Assembly: GCF_024397975.1 (NCBI RefSeq)
Contig: NZ_CP073745.1
Coordinates: 3,064,501 to 3,128,500 of the forward strand
DNA length: 64,000 nt
Source: Bacterioplanoides sp. SCSIO 12839
Lineage (GTDB): Bacteria; Pseudomonadota; Gammaproteobacteria; Pseudomonadales; Oceanobacteraceae
Reading direction: 5' to 3'
Shown: one piece after another, positions 3,088 to 64,000 of the stretch
Numbering within the stretch: position 1 is the first letter of the stretch
Layout of the letters: every line of letters starts with the position of its first letter
Position numbers and translations under genes: made by a program
Notes under the pieces: generated by a model
Database searches by the model: none
Told to the model about the DNA's origin: nothing
The model's input: the letters and a program-made list of their open reading frames with translations, nothing else

Positions 3088-4078
3088 TTGAGATATTTAG
3101 CAACTGGGCACGAATCTGAGCTTCAATTTCAGCGGCCATTTCAGGATTTTCTTCCAGGAACTTGGAAGCGTTAGCTTTACCCTGACCAATCTTATTGCCT
3201 TTGTAGCTATACCAGGCTCCAGACTTCTCAACCAGCTCACATTTCACACCCAGGTCAATAACCTCACCCATGTGGTAAATGCCCTGACCATACATAATCT
3301 GGAATTCTGCCTGGCGGAACGGTGGTGATACTTTGTTTTTCACCACTTTCACCCGGGTTTCGTTACCAACAATTTCATCACCCTGCTTCACTGAACCGGT
3401 ACGACGAATATCCAAACGAACAGATGAGTAGAATTTTAATGCATTACCACCGGTGGTGGTTTCCGGGCTACCAAACATCACACCAATTTTCATACGAATC
3501 TGGTTAATAAAGATCACCAGACAGTTCGCATTTTTAACGTTGGCGGTAATTTTACGCAGCGCCTGAGACATCAGACGAGCCTGTAAGCCAACGTGGGAAT
3601 CACCCATATCGCCTTCAATTTCAGCTTTTGGTGTTAACGCCGCAACGGAGTCCACCACAATCACATCAACCGCACCAGAACGAACCAAGCTGTCACAGAT
3701 TTCCAGTGCCTGTTCACCCGTATCCGGCTGTGATACCAGCAGGCTATCCAGATCAATACCCAGCTTCTCGGCATACAGTGGATCTAACGCGTGCTCCGCA
3801 TCAATGATGGCAACGGTTTTGCCAGCCTTTTGCGCCTGTGCCATCGCTGACAAACACATGGTGGTTTTACCTGAGCTTTCCGGGCCATAAATCTCAACAA
3901 TACGGCCCATTGGCAGACCGCCAATGCCCAAAGCAATATCAAGCCCCAGAGAACCAGTGGAAACCGCCGGAATCGCTTCACGTGGTTGTTCACCCATCTT
4001 CATGATGGCGCCTTTACCAAACTGACGTTCAATCTGGCCCAGTGCAGCATCAAGCGCTTTTTGCTTATTCGCGTCCAT
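3041..4078 (-). CDS. recA: Recombinase RecA
   Basis: ATP-dependent strand-exchange protein and SOS co-protease. At 345 residues it has normal length. The Walker A loop GPESSGKTT is at residues 65-73, and the L2/DNA-binding region [20 protein letters not shown] and the acidic C-terminus [14 protein letters not shown] are both present. AAGGA lies about 6 bases before the ATG at 4078. A LexA-type operator (4138-4153) sits 60 bases upstream. It forms a unit with recX and is divergent from mutS. Confidence 0.99.
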
Positions 4079-15067: not shown

Positions 15068-15099
15068 TTTCCCTCCTTTTAAAGATTTCCTAAATAGGG

Positions 15100-15208
15100 A
15101 AAGAGGTTACTTATATATTCTTAGCCACCGGATCGGTGGGCCATCCATGGCCCTCGATCCTACCGCGACATCCTGTCGCTGTTTTAAGAATATATAAACA
15201 ACCTCTTT
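15100..15208. repeat. Composite palindromic element with internal hairpins
   Basis: Two 24-base arms (15100-15123 and 15185-15208) are inverted repeats matching at 22 of 24 positions. Between them are further self-complementary units: CCACCG-GAT-CGGTGG (15125-15139), GGCCAT-CC-ATGGCC (15139-15152) and GCGACA-TCC-TGTCGC (15165-15179). The whole would fold as a long stem capped by hairpins, in either strand. It has no coding potential and resembles non-autonomous palindromic repeats found between genes of many gammaproteobacteria. It lies in the ftsB leader, so it may affect that operon. Confidence 0.7.
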
Positions 15209-15239
15209 CTTATTTTTTGCTAACACCTCAGCTTGAATG

Positions 15240-25581: not shown

Positions 25582-25941
25582 GGGGATGATTAGGATTCGA
25601 CGTTGATTACAAAGCTATGGATGCATGTCGAGAGCGTACGGTGATCTCGTAAATAAACGCTGTACATTAGTTATAGTCGCAAACGACGAAAACTACGCAC
25701 TAGCGGCATAAGCCCGCTTACACCAGAACTCGGGTGGCTATAGCCGGGGGACGGTGGCATCGTCTTATAGCCTCGCCTCGCGGACTTCGCTCGTAGTCCA
25801 ACAGGTTAAAACTTAATCGAGACAGCTCTAAACACCCTGCCCCTCGGGTCGTGATGAGTTAAATGAATAGAGACGGCTAAGCATGTAGATTCTCTAGTGG
25901 AGGATTGGCGGACGGGGGTTCAAATCCCCCCATCTCCACCA
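25582..25941 (+). ncRNA. ssrA: tmRNA
   Basis: Transfer-messenger RNA for ribosome rescue. The 5' end GGGGATGATTAGGATTCGACG and the 3' end with T-arm GGTTCAAATCC and CCATCTCCACCA pair in a tRNA-like acceptor stem (one G-U pair). The tag reading frame at 25679-25711 runs GCA-AAC-GAC-GAA-AAC-TAC-GCA-CTA-GCG-GCA-TAA, encoding ANDENYALAA, a standard proteolysis tag. The CCA is encoded. It follows smpB and is followed by a terminator. Confidence 0.98.
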
Positions 25942-52110: not shown

Positions 52111-54993
52111 ATGTATAAGATCACACTCATGCGGAGCCTGTTGGCTTTATCGATCGCATCGTTATCTGCCTGTGGTGGCGGTGGCGGTGGTGGTGGCGGT
52201 GAAACACCGTCAAACAATGCACCAAACATCACCGGTGATTCTCTGAATACCCGCGAAGACAGCACACTGAACCATACGGTAAGCGCATCGGATGCAGACG
52301 GTGATAATCTGACATTCGCGATCCAAAGCGACCCCATCCATGGTGATGTCAGTATCTCATCTCTGGGCTTACTGACTTATACACCCTCAGAGAACTACCA
52401 TGGTGATGATCAATTAACCGTATCAGTTTCGGATGGACAGCAGACGTCTTCCGCTGTTTTTTCCATTGACGTTTTATCCGTTAATGACCTGCCTGTTCTC
52501 CATGAGAACTCAGCTTCTTTAACTCTGAATGAAGATACACCAATCAGCACTAGCCTTATCGCTTCAGACGTAGAAGGTGAATCACTCAGCTACTCCCTGA
52601 TTACGCCAGCTAGTAAAGGGATATTCGACCTGAACAGCCAAGGCAATGTTACCTATACCCCCAATGAAAATGAAAATGGTAACGATACAGCCACTATTGC
52701 AATTAGCGATGGAGAGGATTTGGTACAGGCTGAGATTCTGATTACCATTAATCCGGTAAATGATGCCCCAGAGTTAGCTGATACACCATTAACAATAAAC
52801 CTGGATGAAGATACCAGCAGCACTCTTCAACTACAGGCATCCGATGCTGAAAACTCTGATTTAACATATTCAGTGGTCACTCAAACGAATAAAGGGACAA
52901 TTGATATTTCTAATTCAGGAATGATCACTTACATCCCTGACCTGAATGCAAACGGCAATGATCAGGCCTTCATTGCAGTTAGTGATGGTGATTTATCGGC
53001 CATCACTGACATACAAATTACAATTAACCCCGTAAATGACGCACCCGAATTTAATCAGTTAGTCCCTGTCACTGCTGATCTTAATACAGATATCAGTGGT
53101 TCAGTGTCAGCAACTGATGCAGATCAGGACGACCTGACTTTCAGTCTGACAGGTAGCTTGCCTTCTCAAGTAAGTTTCACTATCCAGGCTAATGGACAGT
53201 ACAGCTTTAAAAATGAATCGACTATCAAAAGTCCGATTGAGATAGAACTAGAAGTTTCCGATGGGACACTCACCAATACCGGCTCACTTTATTTTACCGC
53301 CAATACTGACCCTCTGTATTCACAACAATGGCATATGCATAACATTGCACAGACTGCTTTTTCGAACACGGGTGGCACAGCTGGCCACGATATTAATATC
53401 GGTAGCCTTCATCATGCTGGCAAAACCGCAGATATCATTAATATCGCTGTTGTAGATAGTGGACTTGAAATTGCTCACGAAGATTTGGTTAACAACGTTT
53501 TGGCAGGCCGCTCTTACGATTTTAAAAATGATGATGCTGACCCGACACCAGCGACCGTTGGTGGTGACCACGGAACTTCTGTTGCCGGGTTAATCGCTGC
53601 AGAAGGCTTCAACGGTAAAGGTGGCCGTGGTGTTGCTCCAGACGCTAATCTGATGGGTTTCAACTGGCTGGAAACACAGCAGTTTTCTCAGTGGATTGAA
53701 GCCCAGGGCGGAAGCAAAAGTAATGATGCCCATATTATTAACGAAAGTTATGGTGCAACTCCCATTGCGCCGTTGAGCTTTGAAGAGCTGGGAACACAAG
53801 CTGAAGAAGCGCACTACCAAAATACATTGAGCAATAATAACGACCGTGGTGTTTTATTTGTTAAAGCAGCAGGTAATTCATTTGGTGAGATTCAAACAGG
53901 CATCAGAGGAATTGAAGTTATTTTGACCGAATATGCCTATGATGGAAGCGGCCCTAAATTAAGTGCATCTATGGCAGGCAATGAGCCTATGTCTTCCAGT
54001 TTTTATCAAACTGTGATTTCTGCACTGAATGCCGATGCAGATAATCCATTATCGTCATATTCCTCTATTGGGTCGTCCGTGTGGGTATCCGCCCCTGGTG
54101 GTGAGTATGGACAAGATGCGCCGGCAATGATCACAACCGACCTGGAAGGTTGCGGCCGTGGTTATGCAAATGCATCACAAAGCGGCTTTAATGGTGGCAA
54201 CAGCGATAACCAAGACTGCCATTACACCTCTACATTTAACGGTACTTCATCAGCCGCTCCGGTTGCTTCAGGTGTCGCCGCGTTAGTCATGCAAGCTAAT
54301 GATCAACTCACCTGGCGTGATGTGCGCCATATCCTGGCATCAACGGCAAAGAAAATTGATGATGATTTCCAACCGATTACCGTTCAAAACGACCAGCAAA
54401 CACTAACAGTAGAACCTGGTTGGGTTAAAAATGATGCTGGCTATAACTTCCATAACTGGTATGGCTTCGGCATGGTAGACGCAGAAGCTGCAGTCCGAAT
54501 GGCTGAGCAAAGTAACTATCAGTTATTATCACCACTGCAAGAAACGGCATTTATTGCTTCTGCCGATATCAGTGAAGTCACCATTCCGGAAAATAATACT
54601 GGTGTAGAAAAAACCGTGTCAGTAACTGAGGACATCACTGTCGAATCCGTACAAATCAAAGTATCTATCGAGCACCGACGTGACAACGATATTATGATTG
54701 AAGTTGAATCGCCGTCAGGAACCAGATCTGTTGTTCAGCAGCCAAGAAGTTTGTTGATTGCAGACCGTATTGATACGACGACGGAGTTTAATAACACTGT
54801 TCTGTTATCAAACGCTTTTTATGGTGAGCCAAGTTCTGGTGATTGGAAAATTAAAGTAACTGATACCAATAGTGGTGACTTCTTCTTCTACGGTTATAAC
54901 GCGACGACCCGCCAGATAACAAGATACAGAGAAACAAACAATGTCGATGCAGGCAAGCTAACCAAAGCCGAACTAAAAATTTACGGACATTAA
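52111..54993 (+). CDS. Lipoprotein subtilisin-like (S8, kexin-type) protease with cadherin-like repeats and P domain
   Basis: Secreted serine protease. The signal ends at lipobox LSAC (C21), followed by nine glycines. About four repeats of some 90 residues follow (residues 35-400), each with EDT/S near the start, ASDxExDxLTYS and a closing PVNDAPE; these are cadherin-like/tandem-95 domains. The S8 catalytic domain has D449 (VVDSGLE), H487 (GDHGTSVAG), the oxyanion Asn in KAAGNS and S713 (GTSSAAP). The C-terminal 150 residues are a proprotein-convertase P domain (TVPENNTG-like start, SGDWKIKVTDTNSGD). No N-terminal inhibitor propeptide is seen where expected. AAAGGG precedes the ATG. The next gene, 20 bases later, is a small secreted protein. 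Confidence 0.92.
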   Translation: MYKITLMRSLLALSIASLSACGGGGGGGGGETPSNNAPNITGDSLNTREDSTLNHTVSASDADGDNLTFAIQSDPIHGDVSISSLGLLTYTPSENYHGDDQLTVSVSDGQQTSSAVFSIDVLSVNDLPVLHENSASLTLNEDTPISTSLIASDVEGESLSYSLITPASKGIFDLNSQGNVTYTPNENENGNDTATIAISDGEDLVQAEILITINPVNDAPELADTPLTINLDEDTSSTLQLQASDAENSDLTYSVVTQTNKGTIDISNSGMITYIPDLNANGNDQAFIAVSDGDLSAITDIQITINPVNDAPEFNQLVPVTADLNTDISGSVSATDADQDDLTFSLTGSLPSQVSFTIQANGQYSFKNESTIKSPIEIELEVSDGTLTNTGSLYFTANTDPLYSQQWHMHNIAQTAFSNTGGTAGHDINIGSLHHAGKTADIINIAVVDSGLEIAHEDLVNNVLAGRSYDFKNDDADPTPATVGGDHGTSVAGLIAAEGFNGKGGRGVAPDANLMGFNWLETQQFSQWIEAQGGSKSNDAHIINESYGATPIAPLSFEELGTQAEEAHYQNTLSNNNDRGVLFVKAAGNSFGEIQTGIRGIEVILTEYAYDGSGPKLSASMAGNEPMSSSFYQTVISALNADADNPLSSYSSIGSSVWVSAPGGEYGQDAPAMITTDLEGCGRGYANASQSGFNGGNSDNQDCHYTSTFNGTSSAAPVASGVAALVMQANDQLTWRDVRHILASTAKKIDDDFQPITVQNDQQTLTVEPGWVKNDAGYNFHNWYGFGMVDAEAAVRMAEQSNYQLLSPLQETAFIASADISEVTIPENNTGVEKTVSVTEDITVESVQIKVSIEHRRDNDIMIEVESPSGTRSVVQQPRSLLIADRIDTTTEFNNTVLLSNAFYGEPSSGDWKIKVTDTNSGDFFFYGYNATTRQITRYRETNNVDAGKLTKAELKIYGH

Positions 54994-55587: not shown

Positions 55588-57405
55588 CTATTTACCAGCC
55601 AGATACGCCTTCCAGCCGCCCAGCTGAGTAATCTCCTCCGCACCTTCCAAGCCATAAGGCTCACAGATAAAACCACTAACCACAGAGCCATCTGCCACAC
55701 GGACTTTACCAATACCTAGCGGGGCTGGAATACCGGCAACAAAGCTACCGAACTCAGCGGTTGGCACCGACCAGATCTCGACATCAATTGCTGCGCCCTG
55801 TTCTTCATCCAGAATCAGTCCCGGGCGGAACGGTGGCCCTCCGGCCAGTGCATACATACGATACACAGGTGCGGTTTGGGTAACGGTTTTTAATACCGCA
55901 CCGCGCTCTTTTAGCTGCCAGTTAAGTGGCAAGCCATCGAGGTGGGCACCACATACCAGTACATCAATGGTGTCTGTTTTGCCGATTACCACCGCTTCTG
56001 GTGTAGAAGCTTTACTGTCACTTGCGCCCAGCGGTAAATCAAACAGTGGCTGTATGCAGCGGGCAATCGACAGCAGTGCGCGATCACTGAAGGCATGGCC
56101 AACCAGCGTGATACCAAACGGCAAACCGTGTTCAGTAATCTGAGTCGGCACCGCCACCGACGCCATATCCAGCAAGTTCATAAAGTTAGTGTAATAACCT
56201 AACTCGCTGTTGTGTTGAATCGGCTCGGCCAGCATTTCTTCAATGGTAAAACAGCGTCCGGCTGTTGGTGTTAATAAACAATCCACATCTGCCAATTGTT
56301 GGCCGCAAATTGTTTTTAATGCATTTAACCGATATTGCGCTTTGAATAAATCGGTTGCTTTATGTTCACCACCCGGTGCAATAATATCGCGCACCACTGG
56401 GAAAACAGCCTCTGGCTGTTCCGCAATGAGTGGCAGTGTGGCCAGGTAACGCTCAGACACCCAAGGGCCTTCGTATAATAACCGAGCGGCTTCATCAAAC
56501 GGAGCAAAGTCGATTTCAACCAGTTTGATATTCTGCTGTTGCAAAACCGTCAAGGTTTTTTGATAAGCATTTTGGTAATGTTCATCACCAAAAAATTTCA
56601 GTTGCGCCTCTGGAATAATACCCACCGTTAATGGCGATGTTTTATTGGATAAATCATGCTGGCCATAATGGCGCGGATTATTTAAATAGGTATTTTTCCG
56701 GCTGTAGGCATCACTGTCGTCAAAGCCTTCGGCAACAGAAAATACCGAGTTAGCGTCATCACTGTTGAGTGCAAAAATGGTCATACAATCAAGGCTGCGA
56801 CACGCTGGTAACATACCCGTAGCGGATAATAAACCCAGGGATGGTTTTAACCCCACCAGATTATTAAAACACGCCGGCACACGACCAGAACCGGCAGTAT
56901 CCGTGCCTAAGCTGAAACTGGCTAACCCTAACGCAACCGCAACCGACGAGCCGGAGCTGGAACCACCACTGATGTATTCCGGGTTAAACGAATTTTTACA
57001 GGCGCCATAGGGTGAACGAGTGCCGTTTAATCCGGTGGCAAATTGATCCAGATTGGTTTTACCCACAGGAATAGCACCAGCATCAATCAGCTGCTGTACC
57101 ACAGCTGCTGATTTTTCTGGTGTATACGCAAAGGCATCACATGCCGCTGTTGTTGGAATTCCTGCTAAATCAATATTATCTTTAATCGCAAACGGAATAC
57201 CCCATAATGGATGACTTTGTGGATCTTTATTTTTTAAACCGTCCAAATAAGGCGTTAATTCAGTCGCGGTTAATTGATGGATCCAGATATTATGATCCTG
57301 ATATTGCTTCCTCAATTCGCTTATGGCGGCGATCACCTGCTCAGGAGTTGTTTCACCAGACTGATACGCTTGCTGCAGTGCGGTAATGGTTAAAGTATGT
57401 TTCAT
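55588..57405 (-). CDS. atzF: Allophanate hydrolase
   Basis: Hydrolyses allophanate to ammonia and CO2, the last step of urea or guanidine breakdown by the carboxylase route. It is an amidase-signature enzyme: K75 (FAIKDN), the cis-serine in ISGGSSSGSSVA (about S149) and the nucleophile S173 (TDTAGSGRVPA). The C-terminal domain from about residue 470 (IDVLVCGAHLDGLPLNWQL; GGPPFRPGLILDEEQGAAI) is the second, decarboxylating domain of AtzF. At 605 residues it is full length. Only 6 bases separate it from the upstream carboxylase, so it is cotranscribed and lies under the same riboswitch. Confidence 0.96.
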   Translation of the reverse strand: MKHTLTITALQQAYQSGETTPEQVIAAISELRKQYQDHNIWIHQLTATELTPYLDGLKNKDPQSHPLWGIPFAIKDNIDLAGIPTTAACDAFAYTPEKSAAVVQQLIDAGAIPVGKTNLDQFATGLNGTRSPYGACKNSFNPEYISGGSSSGSSVAVALGLASFSLGTDTAGSGRVPACFNNLVGLKPSLGLLSATGMLPACRSLDCMTIFALNSDDANSVFSVAEGFDDSDAYSRKNTYLNNPRHYGQHDLSNKTSPLTVGIIPEAQLKFFGDEHYQNAYQKTLTVLQQQNIKLVEIDFAPFDEAARLLYEGPWVSERYLATLPLIAEQPEAVFPVVRDIIAPGGEHKATDLFKAQYRLNALKTICGQQLADVDCLLTPTAGRCFTIEEMLAEPIQHNSELGYYTNFMNLLDMASVAVPTQITEHGLPFGITLVGHAFSDRALLSIARCIQPLFDLPLGASDSKASTPEAVVIGKTDTIDVLVCGAHLDGLPLNWQLKERGAVLKTVTQTAPVYRMYALAGGPPFRPGLILDEEQGAAIDVEIWSVPTAEFGSFVAGIPAPLGIGKVRVADGSVVSGFICEPYGLEGAEEITQLGGWKAYLAGK

Positions 57406-57411
57406 CGTATT

Positions 57412-60400
57412 TTATTCCTGCTCAATGACCACTAACGCTTGCCCCGCATTGACGCGTTGCCCAGCCGTTAATAAGGTGTGTGTTACAACGCCATCACAAT
57501 GGGCGAACACCGGAATTTCCATTTTCATCGATTCCAAAATCATCAGACACTGCCCAGCCTTAACCGTATCCCCCACAGCCACTTCAGACTGCCAAACACT
57601 GCCGGATACCGGGCTATCAATCACGATAGAATCTTCCGGCCAGTCGGCTTCAGTTTGTTGAATATCGGCTTCTTCGGCTTCGTAATTAAACTGGCCTGTG
57701 GCATGCCAATTCGCCAATTCATTATCGAATGCCTGCTGGCGTGCTTGTTGAAACTGATTAATATCCTGCTGGTTATCGGCAATAAATTGTTGGTATTCCG
57801 ATAAGCTAAAGCTGCTTTCTTCGATGGTAATTGGATAGCGTCCTTGTGGAAAATTCTGGCGAATATCCAACAGTTCATCGCCCGATACCGGGTAAAAACG
57901 AATCTGATCGAAGAAACGTAACAGCCAGGGCTTGGCAAATTCGCGAGTCTGGCGATAACGGTTCCACATTTGTAATGTACGGCCGACAAACTGATAACCA
58001 CCCGGCCCTTCCATGCCATAAACACATAAATACGAGCCACCAATACCAACGGAGTTTTCAGCCGTCCAGGTGCGTGCCGGGTTATATTTTGTGGTCACTA
58101 AACGGTGACGAGGATCAACCGGCGTTGCCACCGGCGCACCAAGGTACACATCACCTAATCCCATCACTAAGTAAGACGCATCAAAGACGATTTTTTTCAC
58201 TTCATCGATGCTATCCAACCCATTAATACGACGAATAAATTCTAAATTACTCGGACACCAGGGCGCATTTGTACGCACAGATTGATCGTATTTTTCAATC
58301 GCAAGTTGGCACGCTTCGTCATCCCACGACAACGGAATATGCACAATACGCGAAGGTACCGATAATTCCTGAACCTGTGTAGCTAACTGTTGTTCGGCCT
58401 GCTGCAAATACGCTAATAATTCATCAGTGCTGATCACCTGGCTGTCGTAATGCACTTGTAACGAACGAATACCCGGCGTTAATTCTCGGAGGCCCGATTT
58501 TGGATTTTTTTGTAACCATTGCATTAATGCATGAGCACGGAAGCGTAGCGCAATATCAAGCTGTTGTTCGCCATATTCCACCAGTAAGAAGTGATCACCG
58601 GCCTGACGATACACCACTTTTTCACCCACACTGTTGGCGCTTAATTCACCCAATAACGGCGAGCGATTATCATCAGCCTGAATGGTCAGTTCAGAATCGA
58701 CTGTTAGTGTTGCTAACTGGTGGATCTGCTGAGCTTCTAACTGATTAGCAGTATCACGGCTTACCGGAACAAAACGAATTTTATCGCCCGCACGTAACTG
58801 CCCTAATTTCCATAAATCAGCGGTAATCACGGTTGCCGGGCAAACAAAACCACCCAGCGATGGGCCGTCCGGGCCGAGAATTACCGGCATATCTCCGGTA
58901 AAATCGACAGTGCCAAAAGCATAGGCATTATCGTGAATATTGGATGGATGTAATCCTGCTTCACCACCGTCGGCTCGTGCCCATTTGGGTTTAGGGCCAA
59001 TTAAACGCACGCCGGTACGGCTGGAGTTGTAATGCACTTCCCAGCTGTGTTCATAAAAAGTATTAATATCCTCATCGGTGAAGAAATCAGGCGCGCCATG
59101 TGGCCCCGGCATCACATGCAATTGCCATTCATTACTGATCGTGGGTAATAATTTTTTAAGCGCTGCTTTTTCTGATGTCGCCGGGATATCCACAGGGCTG
59201 AGTTTTAATACATCACCAACCCGTAACGCCCGACCGTTATGACCACCAAACTGACCTAAGGTAAAGGTAGAACGAGAGCCCAGATATTCCGGGCATTGAA
59301 TACCCCCTTTTACCGCTAAGTAGCTGCGCGCACCCTGTTCACTCACACGACCCAAAGCTAAAACATCACCGGCTTTAATGTTGATTGTTTGCCACAGTGA
59401 TAGCGCAATGGTTTCGCCATTTTCTGCCTGGGTCAGCTCGGCAGAAATCTCAGTACCACCCAGTGCAATCACGGTATCTGCTGAGAATTTCAGCGTTGGC
59501 CCCTGCATGGTGATTTCTAATCCGGCACAATCCTGATCATTATCCAGCAGGCAATTTAATAAACGGAATGAATAATTATCAAACGGCCCTGAAGGTGGAA
59601 CACCCACATCCCAATAACCGGAGCGCGCCGGATAATCCTGAATGGTTGTTTGTGTGCCCGCCACCAGCACATCCATACGTTGTGGATAAAAAGCAAAGTC
59701 ATTTAAATAACGGGTGGTGACTTCTCCAGCCGCTAAAACAGCATCACGGCTTAATGACCGTAAATAATCCAGATTGGTTTCACTGCCGTATAAAACCACC
59801 TCATCCAGTGTTGCTTGTAATTTATTCAGAGCCGCTTGCCGGTCATCGGCATGCACAATCACTTTGGCTAACATCGGATCAAAAAAGGGCGGTACTTCGA
59901 TACCACTTTCAACCCAGCGATCAATACGAATACCTTCACCTTGTGGGAATTGCACCTGAGATAATAATCCGGCACAAGGCTGAAAATCCCGATAAGGATC
60001 TTCGGCGTACAAACGTACCTGAATAGCATGGCAGGAAGGTGTTAGCTGCTTTCTCTGCTGATCAAGGTTTGGCGACTGACCAGCGGCTAACTGCACCATC
60101 CATTCCACCAGATCAATGCCATATACTTCTTCAGTAACACCATGCTCAACCTGTAAGCGGGTATTTACTTCTAGGAAATAAAATTCATTGCTGTCGGCAT
60201 CAAAAATAAATTCGACCGTACCGGCATTGCGGTAATTCACACTGGCTAATAAAGTCTCAGCCGTTTGATAAAGCTGCTGGCGAATATCATCGGTTAAATT
60301 GGGTGCCGGGCACTCTTCCACCACTTTCTGATTACGACGTTGGCTGGAGCAGTCACGTTCACCAATGGCTAATGCATTGCCCTGGCCATCGGCAAACACC

Positions 60401-61056
60401 TGTACTTCAATATGCCGTGCACGCTGAATAAATTTTTCTAAAAAGACACCGTCATCGACAAAGTTATTGGCACCCAGACGTTTTACGCTGTCAAACGCTC
60501 CCTGTAACTCCTCAGCACTGTGACACAATTGCATACCAATACCACCACCACCAGCGGTGCTTTTTAACATCACCGGATAACCAATCTCATCGGCTTGTTG
60601 TAACGCGTCATCCAGACTTGCTAATAAATCTGTGCCCGGTGATAACGGAACATTCGCCGCAATCGCTAATTCACGGGCTTTATGCTTCAAACCAAACGCC
60701 AGCATTTGCTCTGCGGTTGGGCCAATAAAAGCAATGCTCTGCTGTTCACAGCGTTGCACAAACTCTGGGTTTTCACTTAAAAAACCATAACCCGGATGAA
60801 TCGCTTGAGCGCCGCTTTGTTGGGCGAAATCCAGAATTTTTTCAATATCCAGATAGGTTTCTTTGGCAGTTCCGTCGCCTAAACAATAGGCTTCATCGGC
60901 ATCGCGGACATGTAAGCTATCTGCATCAGATTGGGCATAAACAGCAACAGATTGAATATTCAGCTTTTTCAGAGTGCGGATAATACGCACCGCAATGGCA
61001 CCACGATTCGCAATCAAAACTTTGCTGAACTCAGGCGAAGAAGGTATGACGGACAT
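57412..61056 (-). CDS. uca: Urea/guanidine carboxylase (biotin-dependent), probably guanidine carboxylase
   Basis: ATP- and biotin-dependent carboxylase with all domains in one chain of 1214 residues: biotin carboxylase (residues 1-450, FSKVLIANRGAIAVRIIRTL; glycine-rich loop KSTAGGGGIGMQL), carboxyltransferase halves homologous to allophanate hydrolase subunit 2/PxpC (about 465-780, GVPPSGPFDNYSFRLLN) and subunit 1/PxpB (about 825-1030), and a biotinyl domain with K1178 in ESMKMEIPV. Homologues are named urea carboxylase, but a subgroup prefers guanidine, giving carboxyguanidine. A guanidine-II riboswitch before its start and two DUF1989 genes upstream favour guanidine here. GGAAG is 6 bases before the ATG. 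Confidence 0.95.
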   Translation of the reverse strand: MSVIPSSPEFSKVLIANRGAIAVRIIRTLKKLNIQSVAVYAQSDADSLHVRDADEAYCLGDGTAKETYLDIEKILDFAQQSGAQAIHPGYGFLSENPEFVQRCEQQSIAFIGPTAEQMLAFGLKHKARELAIAANVPLSPGTDLLASLDDALQQADEIGYPVMLKSTAGGGGIGMQLCHSAEELQGAFDSVKRLGANNFVDDGVFLEKFIQRARHIEVQVFADGQGNALAIGERDCSSQRRNQKVVEECPAPNLTDDIRQQLYQTAETLLASVNYRNAGTVEFIFDADSNEFYFLEVNTRLQVEHGVTEEVYGIDLVEWMVQLAAGQSPNLDQQRKQLTPSCHAIQVRLYAEDPYRDFQPCAGLLSQVQFPQGEGIRIDRWVESGIEVPPFFDPMLAKVIVHADDRQAALNKLQATLDEVVLYGSETNLDYLRSLSRDAVLAAGEVTTRYLNDFAFYPQRMDVLVAGTQTTIQDYPARSGYWDVGVPPSGPFDNYSFRLLNCLLDNDQDCAGLEITMQGPTLKFSADTVIALGGTEISAELTQAENGETIALSLWQTINIKAGDVLALGRVSEQGARSYLAVKGGIQCPEYLGSRSTFTLGQFGGHNGRALRVGDVLKLSPVDIPATSEKAALKKLLPTISNEWQLHVMPGPHGAPDFFTDEDINTFYEHSWEVHYNSSRTGVRLIGPKPKWARADGGEAGLHPSNIHDNAYAFGTVDFTGDMPVILGPDGPSLGGFVCPATVITADLWKLGQLRAGDKIRFVPVSRDTANQLEAQQIHQLATLTVDSELTIQADDNRSPLLGELSANSVGEKVVYRQAGDHFLLVEYGEQQLDIALRFRAHALMQWLQKNPKSGLRELTPGIRSLQVHYDSQVISTDELLAYLQQAEQQLATQVQELSVPSRIVHIPLSWDDEACQLAIEKYDQSVRTNAPWCPSNLEFIRRINGLDSIDEVKKIVFDASYLVMGLGDVYLGAPVATPVDPRHRLVTTKYNPARTWTAENSVGIGGSYLCVYGMEGPGGYQFVGRTLQMWNRYRQTREFAKPWLLRFFDQIRFYPVSGDELLDIRQNFPQGRYPITIEESSFSLSEYQQFIADNQQDINQFQQARQQAFDNELANWHATGQFNYEAEEADIQQTEADWPEDSIVIDSPVSGSVWQSEVAVGDTVKAGQCLMILESMKMEIPVFAHCDGVVTHTLLTAGQRVNAGQALVVIEQE

Positions 61057-61067
61057 AAGTCTTCCAA

Positions 61068-61149
61068 ACCGGGTCGTCCCGGTGTGTTAGCCAAGATCCT
61101 GTATTTTAGGGATCACTTTCTGCTGGCTTGCGACGGTGGTCGTCCACCG
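61068..61149 (-). promoter_or_regulatory. Guanidine-II (mini-ykkC) riboswitch
   Basis: On the minus strand two stem-loops have the signature loop ACGA: CGGTGG-ACGA-CCACCG (61134-61149) and, 50 bases on, ACCGGG-ACGA-CCCGGT (61068-61083). Paired GG-ACGA-CC hairpins are the definition of the mini-ykkC motif, which binds guanidinium, each loop contributing to a kissing pair. The 50-base linker is rather long and folds itself (GCCA...TGGC with GATCC/GGATC inside). The second hairpin ends 11 bases before the carboxylase ATG and just before the GGAAG ribosome-binding site, so control of translation initiation is expected: guanidine would stabilise the hairpins and free the site. It has not been compared with a covariance model here. 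Confidence 0.88.
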
Positions 61150-61209
61150 AAGGGTTTGATCTTAATAAGGTGAATAACTTAAAAAATTATCGTTAATAAA
61201 AAATGCTTT

Positions 61210-61878
61210 TTATTCATTCCAAACCAGAACTTCAACCGGTGTTGGGTTATAACCGTTACAAGGGTTATTCAGCTGTGGGCAATTTGAGATTAAAACAATC
61301 ACGTCCATCTCCGCCTTTAACTCGACGTATTTACCCGCGCCGGAAATACCATCTTCAAAGGTTAAACCACCAGCGGCTGTTACCGGCACGTTCATAAAGA
61401 AATTAATATTGTGGCTGATGTCGCGTTTACTTAAGCCGTATTCCGGGTGTTCAGCAATGGCTAACATCCAGCTGTCACGGCAGGCGTGCATACAGCGCTT
61501 TTCCAGATCATAACGCACGGTATTACTTTCGGTGGCACAAGCACCGCCTAAGGTATCATGACGGCCACAAGTGTCGGCGACAATTTCCAGCATCACATTA
61601 TTACGATCAGAACGTAATTGTGAGCCGGTGGTTAAATACACGTTACCCTGTTCACGAATGGTATCGGTCGCGCTGTAACGTTCCTGCGGATCGTTGGCAT
61701 TATAAAATAAGGTATCGGCGGCCTGGTTACCTTCCAGATCCAGAATACGGAATGTCTGGCCGGCTTTTACCATTCCAATATAATAATCACCGGCATCAAC
61801 GGTATCGCGTTGAATGGCATTTTCCGGAATTAATTCAGAGGTGACTAGCTCGTTTTTATTCAGCGTACTGTCTAACAT
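61210..61878 (-). CDS. DUF1989 protein, urea carboxylase-associated protein 2 (carboxyguanidine deiminase subunit)
   Basis: One of two related DUF1989 proteins next to the carboxylase. In guanidine-using bacteria the pair was shown to act as a heteromeric carboxyguanidine deiminase (CgdAB), turning carboxyguanidine into allophanate and ammonia. The 222-residue protein has the family core [35 protein letters not shown], a metal/active-site cysteine region [18 protein letters not shown] and [19 protein letters not shown]. It starts 15 bases after the other DUF1989 gene and is 153 bases before the carboxylase, with the riboswitch in between. Confidence 0.9.
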
Positions 61879-61893
61879 AATAAAGCCCTTAAA

Positions 61894-62631
61894 TTAGAAG
61901 CCAGCGGCAATATGATATAAACGGTTATTATCAAAACCGCGCTGATTTTCCGGACGGAAGTTTTTGCAAAAATCATCATCCGCAATCGGCTGTGCAACAC
62001 CGAGTTCAACCTGAACCGGTAAACGTGGATATTGCTCGGCTTTATTCAATGGGTGTGGGCAGGTGTGCAACACCACCAGCGTGTCCATTTCAAAGCGCAA
62101 AGTAACCTGATTACCAGCCTGAGAATGCTCAGCAGCCAAGCTCATATTGCCTCCATCATCCACCGCCACTTTGCTGAACCAGTTGATATTGGCTGCCATA
62201 TCAGCGCTGGTTAAACCGTACTTGGCTAATTCGACTAAAAACGCATCGTTGCCATTCTGGTACCAGTCATTACGGTCGCTTTGATAATCACGCTTGCCCC
62301 ACTGCTGTTCGATATGACTGGCGTGGCTGTTACCACACACGGTTTCATGCCAGCCCAGATCATCACCAATAACCGAGGCAAAAATACGCCCCATATCGGA
62401 GTACAGGCAGTTGCCTTTAGTTAATTTAAAGGTGTGCTGACACTTTAACGAATCAGGGGCGTTATAACGCTCCAGCAGGTTCTCCGGGTTGTAGAACAAC
62501 ATGCCCATATTGGCGCTGCCTTCCATATCCGTCAGGCGTAATACCGTGCCACGACGTACCCGCAACGACCAATGGCTACCACCCGGAATAACCGTTGTAT
62601 AGTCGATGGATTTAATTAATTCAGACATAGT
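61894..62631 (-). CDS. DUF1989 protein, urea carboxylase-associated protein 1 (carboxyguanidine deiminase subunit)
   Basis: Partner of the downstream DUF1989 protein and similar in fold: VIPGGSHWSLRVRRGTVLRL, MEGSANMGMLFYNPENLLER, GWHETVCGNSHASHIEQQWG and THTCPHPLNK-like end (LHTCPHPLNKAEQYP). Predicted subunit of carboxyguanidine deiminase, between the carboxylase and allophanate hydrolase steps. The frame extends to 62655, but the internal ATG at 62631 (MSELIKS...) fits the family better. It follows the ABC ATPase gene by a few tens of bases in the same orientation. Confidence 0.9.
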   Translation of the reverse strand, partial: TMSELIKSIDYTTVIPGGSHWSLRVRRGTVLRLTDMEGSANMGMLFYNPENLLERYNAPDSLKCQHTFKLTKGNCLYSDMGRIFASVIGDDLGWHETVCGNSHASHIEQQWGKRDYQSDRNDWYQNGNDAFLVELAKYGLTSADMAANINWFSKVAVDDGGNMSLAAEHSQAGNQVTLRFEMDTLVVLHTCPHPLNKAEQYPRLPVQVELGVAQPIADDDFCKNFRPENQRGFDNNRLYHIAAGF

Positions 62632-62669
62632 TAACTCGCTACCACTTTTATTCAAAAACTGCCTTCAGG

Positions 62670-63479
62670 TTATGCATTGACAGCCAAGGCTGTTTCTTTG
62701 ACATCTTTATTAATGGCGTTAAATTCTTTTTCGGCGGTGTTACCAACCGCTAAGTCGTAAGTGACCCCAGCGCCATAACGTCCGGGAGCTTGAGGGTCTA
62801 ACCGGTGTTTATCAAATACCCACAACCGGGTTCCCAGATAAAAACCTTCACTCAGGTCATGAGTCACCATAAAAACCGTGAGCTGGTATTCTTTCCAGAG
62901 TTTAAGCACCAGTTCGTGCATATCGGCACGAATGCCCGGGTCCAGAGCACCAAAAGGTTCATCCAATAATAAGATTCTTGGTTTACCCAATAGCGCCTGA
63001 GCAATGGCTAATCGCTGTTTCATGCCACCGGATAATTCATGTGGGTACTTATTCAGTGCATGGCTTAGGCCCACTTGTTCTAAAATTTCCTCGGCGTCTT
63101 TTTTTGCCTGCTTACGTTTTTCACCCAATAACCAACCTGTGATACCGGGTTGTTTAAAACCTTTGGCCGCCATCACATTGTCGAGTACCGTCATGTGTGG
63201 AAAAACCGAATATTGTTGAAAAACGATGCCACGCTCATCGTCCGGCTCATCACTGATGGGTTTTCCATCCAATAAAATATTGCCCTGACTTGGCGTGACT
63301 GTGCCCAACAACATATTCAGAAAGGTACTTTTACCACAGCCCGAAGCACCTACTAAGGTCACAAATTCGCCTTCTTTTACTGTCAGGTTCAGGCGTTCTA
63401 ACACAACGTTATCGCCGTAGGTTTTCCAGACGTTTTGCACTTCAATCATATTGATTCCACTCTTATGGGCTTCACTCAT
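62670..63479 (-). CDS. ABC transporter ATP-binding protein (nitrate/taurine/guanidine-type)
   Basis: ATPase of a substrate-binding-protein-dependent importer of the nitrate/sulfonate/taurine family. Walker A is GASGCGKSTFLNMLLG, the ABC signature ELSGGMKQRLAIAQALLG, Walker B ILLLDEPFGALD. I chose the ATG at 63479, which overlaps the permease stop by 4 bases (ATGA), over the longer frame to 63497. It lies in the guanidine operon and probably energises guanidine (or a related cation) uptake; substrate inferred from context. Confidence 0.93.
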   Translation of the reverse strand: MSEAHKSGINMIEVQNVWKTYGDNVVLERLNLTVKEGEFVTLVGASGCGKSTFLNMLLGTVTPSQGNILLDGKPISDEPDDERGIVFQQYSVFPHMTVLDNVMAAKGFKQPGITGWLLGEKRKQAKKDAEEILEQVGLSHALNKYPHELSGGMKQRLAIAQALLGKPRILLLDEPFGALDPGIRADMHELVLKLWKEYQLTVFMVTHDLSEGFYLGTRLWVFDKHRLDPQAPGRYGAGVTYDLAVGNTAEKEFNAINKDVKETALAVNA

Positions 63480-64000
63480 GATTTTCCCTCCGCCCATGGG
63501 AATAAACGCTGATTCAGTTTTCTCAATCCGTAATCAATCACAAACGCAAGAAAAGTAATCCAGGCGACATAGGGTAAAATCACATCCATCGCCATATAAC
63601 GTCGTACCAGGAAAATGCGATAGCCCAATCCTTCAGTCGAAGCAACGGCTTCAGCGGCAATTAAAAATAACCAGCCAGCCCCCAACGACAAACGCACTGC
63701 ATCAATCAGTTTGGGCATAATTTGCGGCAAAATAACGCGCACCAAAATCTGAGAGGTGTTAGCCCCCAGTGTTTGTGCTTTCACCAACTGTTCGGTTGGA
63801 ATTTCCTGAGTTCGGCGTTGAATATCACGCGCAATAAACGGGGTAATACCAATCGCAATCAGTGCAACTTTTGATAATTCGCCAAGGCCAAAGACAATAA
63901 ATAAAATCGGTAAAATCGCTAATGGTGGTACCAGAGACACTACCGTTAATAACGGCGAAAGCCAGGAAGCAAACAAAGGCAATGCGCCGGTTACCACACC
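63476..64000 (-). CDS. ABC transporter permease (partial, 5' end outside the window)
   Basis: Inner-membrane permease partner of the ATPase gene it overlaps. The visible C-terminal 170 residues have four to five membrane segments (VVSLVPPLAILPILFIVFG; DAVRLSLGAGWLFLIAAEA; VILPYVAWITFLAFVI) and the EAA loop that docks the ATPase (EQLVKAQTLGANTSQILVRV). The reading frame is open to the edge of the window, so the start and probably a substrate-binding protein lie beyond 64000. Confidence 0.9.
   Translation of the reverse strand, partial: GVVTGALPLFASWLSPLLTVVSLVPPLAILPILFIVFGLGELSKVALIAIGITPFIARDIQRRTQEIPTEQLVKAQTLGANTSQILVRVILPQIMPKLIDAVRLSLGAGWLFLIAAEAVASTEGLGYRIFLVRRYMAMDVILPYVAWITFLAFVIDYGLRKLNQRLFPWAEGKS

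Follow-up and report, generated by a model that had tools for sequence, protein, structure and literature searches.

A probable Guanidine-II riboswitch with an unusually long linker before a predicted guanidine carboxylase gene in Bacterioplanoides sp. SCSIO 12839

In the 64,000-nucleotide stretch of the Bacterioplanoides sp. SCSIO 12839 genome analysed here (the window), two hairpins on the minus strand are assigned with high confidence to the Guanidine-II (mini-ykkC) riboswitch class. They lie between the probable carboxyguanidine deiminase genes and a gene for a predicted guanidine carboxylase, as the second switch of a cluster that carries a Guanidine-I riboswitch at its head. The element very probably represents a known class in a known setting, out of the ordinary only for its unusually long linker. 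A gene named urea carboxylase is thereby assigned to the breakdown of guanidine, and its cluster carries guanidine riboswitches of two classes.

A hairpin pair of probable Guanidine-II class

Read along the minus strand, the element consists of hairpin P1 (CGGTGG-ACGA-CCACCG, 61,134-61,149), a 50-nt linker (61,084-61,133) with a possible hairpin of its own at 61,089-61,128, hairpin P2 (ACCGGG-ACGA-CCCGGT, 61,068-61,083) and 11 nt (61,057-61,067) between the end of P2 at 61,068 and the carboxylase ATG, which starts at 61,056. These 11 nt hold a Shine-Dalgarno-like GGAAG (61,061-61,065), presumably the ribosome binding site. Each hairpin has a 6-bp stem free of mismatches and an intact ACGA loop; the sequence-only reading had described the loops, the 50-nt spacing and the distance to the ATG correctly and had given the stems as 5 bp. 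The stretch 61,050-61,160 folds at -33.9 kcal/mol (z -2.36), with 3 of 200 shuffled sequences folding equally well. The pattern GGACGRCC-N44..74-GGGACGRCCC occurs once in the genome, a single contig of 3.9 Mb, and its reversed control does not occur. The element has the pair of stem-loops that marks the class, each with an ACGR loop closed by GG/CC, and P2 sits where literature excerpts place class members, near the ribosome binding site of a gene for guanidine metabolism (PMC5486947).

Like the Rfam Guanidine-II family (RF01068), the element has two stem-loops with GGACGACC cores ahead of a start codon; unlike the family, it has a 50-nt linker with a possible hairpin, and it scores under the family cut-off. 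An Rfam scan over the whole window did not report it. With loose settings, RF01068 gave 19.5 bits at 61,069-61,110, where the linker hairpin was taken as P1, and 11 bits for P1 alone, both against a cut-off of 32. The sequence-only reading had proposed a scan with this model as its check and had counted the lack of a significant match as half of what would speak against it; with both scores below the cut-off, that half is what we found. The cut-off is not decisive here, because relatives with ordinary linkers miss it too: 9 of 16 related loci (L056-L071) pass, and 6 of the 7 misses are paired hairpins with linkers of 10-15 nt. Among 13 further loci whose carboxylase carries the same aspartate as the present enzyme (Asp-type, see below), 12 pass, the one miss being L157. 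We treat the Rfam gathering score as a search threshold rather than as a biological defining feature; since it misses this long-linker member along with several ordinary ones, counts of the Guanidine-II class may be too low. The genome has a second weak RF01068 match, of 14 bits, at G000:C1:3797103-3797156; it runs antisense to a 617-aa open reading frame that encloses it and resembles glucosamine-6-phosphate synthase, and was set aside as a chance match.

Because the Rfam score fell below the cut-off, relatives of the carboxylase were collected, giving 139 loci (our own, 120 fetched by place and 18 of 22 from genome contigs), typed at position 718 of our enzyme as aspartate (117) or asparagine (22). 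The 260 nt upstream of each were examined for two ACGR hairpins whose stems have 4 bp or more, including two or more G-C pairs. Such pairs precede 82 of the 117 Asp-type carboxylases (our own included) versus none of the 22 Asn-type ones, a contrast that is confounded, and that ancestry alone could explain on the Asn side, because all 22 Asn-type enzymes are 52-54% identical to ours and no pair was seen either at any of the 9 Asp-type loci with less than 56% identity. In control stretches of 260 nt further upstream at the same 139 loci, a pair was found in 6 of 1788. By this test 35 Asp-type loci lack a pair; for the 26 of them with more than 56% identity, the leaders were read. Eight contain two hairpins that a mismatch or the limits of the test had hidden (L034, L059, L095, L099, L119, L130, L138 and L162), one (L060) has a 172-nt linker, and others show no Guanidine-II hairpins. 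At L062, a Guanidine-II element lies further upstream (3966-4009), before a gene that by eye resembles UAAP1, with the carboxylase gene almost directly after the next gene; pattern matches in genomes G203, G096 and G050, some 1.5 kb ahead of the carboxylase gene, suggest a similar arrangement. Matches to a short-gap version of the pattern were present in 97 of 332 genomes of the order.

The stems of these leaders covary. A set of 82 distinct leaders, ours among them, was selected solely on the presence of exactly two GGACGRCC motifs close to the gene; in it, pairing at the outer positions of the stems is seen in 298 of 328 cells for P1 and 268 of 328 for P2, compared with 83 of 240 for occurrences within gene bodies. 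A diverse subset of 54 out of 79 distinct leaders was aligned, our own sequence being left out; here the stems pair in 94.6% of cells; the covariation score is 0.544 versus 0.141 in shuffles, and 132 cells are changed on both sides versus 42.7, figures that overstate the case for covariation because the leaders are related. Two of the five covariation measures beat the shuffles less clearly (pairs with two-sided change, 135/500; further pair types, 29/500).

Hairpins in operon gaps often set mRNA stability, and the pair could on that general ground be read as an mRNA processing or stability element, or else as chance palindromes, with no sensing of a ligand. We regard this as extremely improbable: across the 54-leader alignment the loops and closing pairs are invariant except for the A/G loop position and the outer pairs covary, and the low pair rate in the control stretches speaks against chance.

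A covariance model (R1) built from the 54 leaders, and hence without our own sequence, matches the element over its full length with 29.4 bits (E 3.1e-5 in 80 kb, and 7.9e-7 in 2 kb without filters). No other match in the genome was reported up to an E-value of 10 (E 0.0016 for the element; of 704 first-look candidates, 150 were scored); the E-values of such a search are rough. The training set included one long linker, the 53-nt linker of L157, so R1 penalizes the present linker less than a model trained on ordinary linkers would. An R1 match of 13.6 bits at 53,123-53,157 consists mainly of a P1-like hairpin inside a 960-aa open reading frame and was rejected as chance. The leave-one-out model, the covariation and the gene context together support the mini-ykkC identity that had been proposed from the letters of this stretch; guanidinium, as the ligand of the class, is the predicted ligand here.

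A probable guanidine cluster with two switches

The genes around the element all lie on the minus strand. Downstream are the 1214-aa carboxylase (57,412-61,056; urea carboxylase family TIGR02712, 1853.8 bits) and a 605-aa allophanate hydrolase (55,588-57,405; TIGR02713, 774.8 bits). Upstream are UAAP2 (61,210-61,878; TIGR03424, 337.3 bits) and UAAP1 (61,894-62,655; TIGR03425, 330.3 bits), which we take, partly with the help of literature excerpts, to be the probable subunits of carboxyguanidine deiminase. They are preceded by an ABC transporter ATP-binding protein (62,670-63,497; best family TIGR01184 at 188 bits, below its cut-off of 291.8) and by an ABC transporter permease that is cut by the window end (63,476-64,000). 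Beyond the window follows a probable substrate-binding protein, named from its place and a signal-peptide-like start.

According to excerpts of published work, a guanidine carboxylase needs aspartate at the positions corresponding to 1330 and 1584 of the Kluyveromyces lactis enzyme (PMC11410670). Both residues are present: D718 aligns with N1330 of K. lactis urea amidolyase (5i8i), and D969 stands opposite position 1584, as counted by hand along the alignment match line. The best family name of the protein is urea carboxylase, and the enzyme might accordingly be thought to act on urea, with the guanidine switch a relic of ancestry; given aspartate rather than asparagine at the first of these positions, the UAAP1 and UAAP2 partners and a Guanidine-I riboswitch upstream, we find this very improbable. 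The reassignment from urea to guanidine made in the sequence-only reading is right on the same grounds, the activity itself being predicted. It is not new, since such carboxylases have already been reassigned in print, as excerpts of three papers report (PMC12186494, PMC11410670, PMC12508155). What this case adds is a further representative of a known class, one whose linker is unusual.

The Guanidine-I riboswitch lies just outside the window (G000:C1:3129994-3130147, minus strand; 80 bits against a cut-off of 63), before the gene that resembles the substrate-binding protein of the transporter, and two terminator-like sites occur near it where 0.8 would be expected. Thirty-two loci, picked for high identity or membership of the same family from the 120 fetched, were scanned for both classes. 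Guanidine-I scored above its cut-off within 5.5 kb upstream at 16 of 16 loci (L056-L071) and at 13 of 13 further Asp-type loci, and the 3 Asn-type loci scanned had neither class. At five loci (L059, L061, L156, L160 and L164), Guanidine-I lies only about 1.7-1.9 kb before the carboxylase gene.

This two-switch layout is not new either, because it has already been published. Excerpts describe it in Vreelandella boliviensis, with in-line probing of both switches, as in several other bacteria (PMC12508155), and in Raoultella, Erwinia and Klebsiella (PMC12186494). In the published system of other organisms, as far as excerpts describe it, the importer and carboxyguanidine deaminase genes go with Guanidine-I and the carboxylase and allophanate hydrolase genes with Guanidine-II, as they do here. 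The V. boliviensis operon is alike in having Guanidine-I at its head and Guanidine-II between cgdB and gca, in sharing the pathway genes and in including an ABC transporter; it differs in that mgdH and mgdL separate gca from atzF, which in our cluster corresponds to a carboxylase gene directly followed by the allophanate hydrolase gene, and its Guanidine-II switch is described as not discriminating guanidine from methylguanidine (excerpts of PMC12508155).

The long linker

That the linker is longer than in most examples, as the sequence-only reading had stated, was borne out by the survey: among the 82 loci with a pair (our own included), 80 linkers measure 9-20 nt, ours 50 nt and that of L157 53 nt. 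Ours also falls outside the 7-40 nt given for Guanidine-II in excerpts of PMC7544219, a range of known examples rather than a requirement. Excerpts of another paper state that the great majority of linkers are at least 13 nt long and that a linker of 14 nt must span 49 angstrom (PMC5486947).

The further suggestion of a structural variant with its own linker hairpin holds for the length and less firmly for the hairpin, which is only weakly better than chance (z -1.84; 7 of 200 shuffles fold equally well). Since 5 nt remain on each side of it, a formed hairpin would leave an effective linker near the usual length. The other long linker of the survey belongs to a member of the same family (G033, L157), whose leader is alike in its carboxylase context, intact hairpins, foldable 53-nt linker and upstream Guanidine-I; the linker sequence differs by eye, and the hairpin it can form does not exceed chance (z -1.04; 27 of 200 shuffles fold equally well). 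That the linker hairpin is a working third element, making a three-hairpin Guanidine-II variant in which it either shortens the effective linker for P1-P2 kissing or adds a site for another regulator, is a proposal that we consider unlikely.

Other long linkers are of several kinds. In genome G121, a 172-nt Guanidine-II linker (L210 1534-1705, on G121:C31) holds a long palindrome. Searching that genome with the stretch gives 38 matches, of which 3 or more are the stretch and its own arms. P1 and P2 stay intact around it, so a dispersed repeat seems to be tolerated between them, and long linkers may arise by insertion of small palindromes there, as this repeat suggests. In our own genome, the linker matches elsewhere at just two places, both short and partial (E 0.077 and 1.74). 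Among places with longer gaps, picked from the short-gap pattern matches of the order, a Guanidine-II-like pair in G287 with a 39-nt linker (L196) has a strong linker hairpin, equalled by 1 of 200 shuffles, which preserve base composition only; at linkers of 29 nt (L197, L198, L200) and 32 nt (L201), hairpins are mostly no better than shuffles. The long-gap pattern matched in 3 of 44 genomes of the family, 5 of 390 of the order and 12 of 369 of the class, in samples that overlap and each include our own genome, and it misses other forms such as that of G121. Of the 20 loci with long gaps, both stems reach at least 5 bp only in our own (L176) and in G033 (L178). The cases of our own genome, L157, G121 and G287 indicate that long linkers with hairpins recur, rarely, with unlike sequences. 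A text search of the literature for at least two of five linker phrases together gave no match.

A linker of this length, outside both the surveyed and the published ranges, might mark a decayed or inactive Guanidine-II element, stretched by an insertion, in a cluster under the control of Guanidine-I only, and some Asp-type carboxylases do lack Guanidine-II hairpins before the gene. We judge such decay improbable, as both stems remain perfect and both loops intact, and as the family member with a 53-nt linker and G121 with 172 nt keep both hairpins as well. The rare long linkers (50, 53 and 172 nt) are naturally occurring cases on which the limits that the kissing-loop model sets to linker length could be tested.

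Predicted mode of action

By analogy with the class, as described in excerpts of PMC12186494 and PMC9094411, guanidinium would bind both ACGA loops as they kiss, and its binding would raise translation of the carboxylase, perhaps also that of the allophanate hydrolase behind it; guanidine, when present, would then be imported and degraded to ammonia. For this leader, ligand binding, loop kissing and an ON response are predictions from the class.

The class model, in the part of PMC9094411 available, places a putative anti-Shine-Dalgarno sequence in the linker. In 66 leaders, neither linkers nor flanks showed a clear excess of complementarity to the Shine-Dalgarno over controls: mean duplex energies were -4.83 kcal/mol for the first 14 nt of the linker, -4.33 for the last 14 nt and -4.30 for the P1 flank, against -4.54 and -4.30 kcal/mol in control stretches. 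The whole linker averaged -5.03 kcal/mol and is longer than the controls. The motif CTTC occurred in 7 linkers and 2 flanks versus 0 and 2 controls of these leaders, a weak hint at best. When our leader is folded up to the ATG, the Shine-Dalgarno is paired with a CUUC that lies at the 5' edge of P1, and it becomes free if P1 and P2 are enforced. If the fold extends 30 or 45 nt into the coding sequence, the Shine-Dalgarno is paired whether or not the two hairpins are enforced. The predicted accessibility therefore depends on how much coding sequence is folded. No promoter-like site and no minus-strand terminator-like site were found within 61,000-61,300, and the one plus-strand terminator-like site there coincides with the linker hairpin.

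Apart from the guanidine switches, a tmRNA was found at 25,582-25,941 on the plus strand of the window (181.7 bits, ordinary), and a TwoAYGGAY RNA at 15,084-15,223 on the minus strand, with 51.2 bits, above the Rfam cut-off. TwoAYGGAY RNA also has one match at L162 and four at L161 (4221-5253), a locus from a member of the same family as our genome, where they fall within about 1 kb directly upstream of the Guanidine-II leader.
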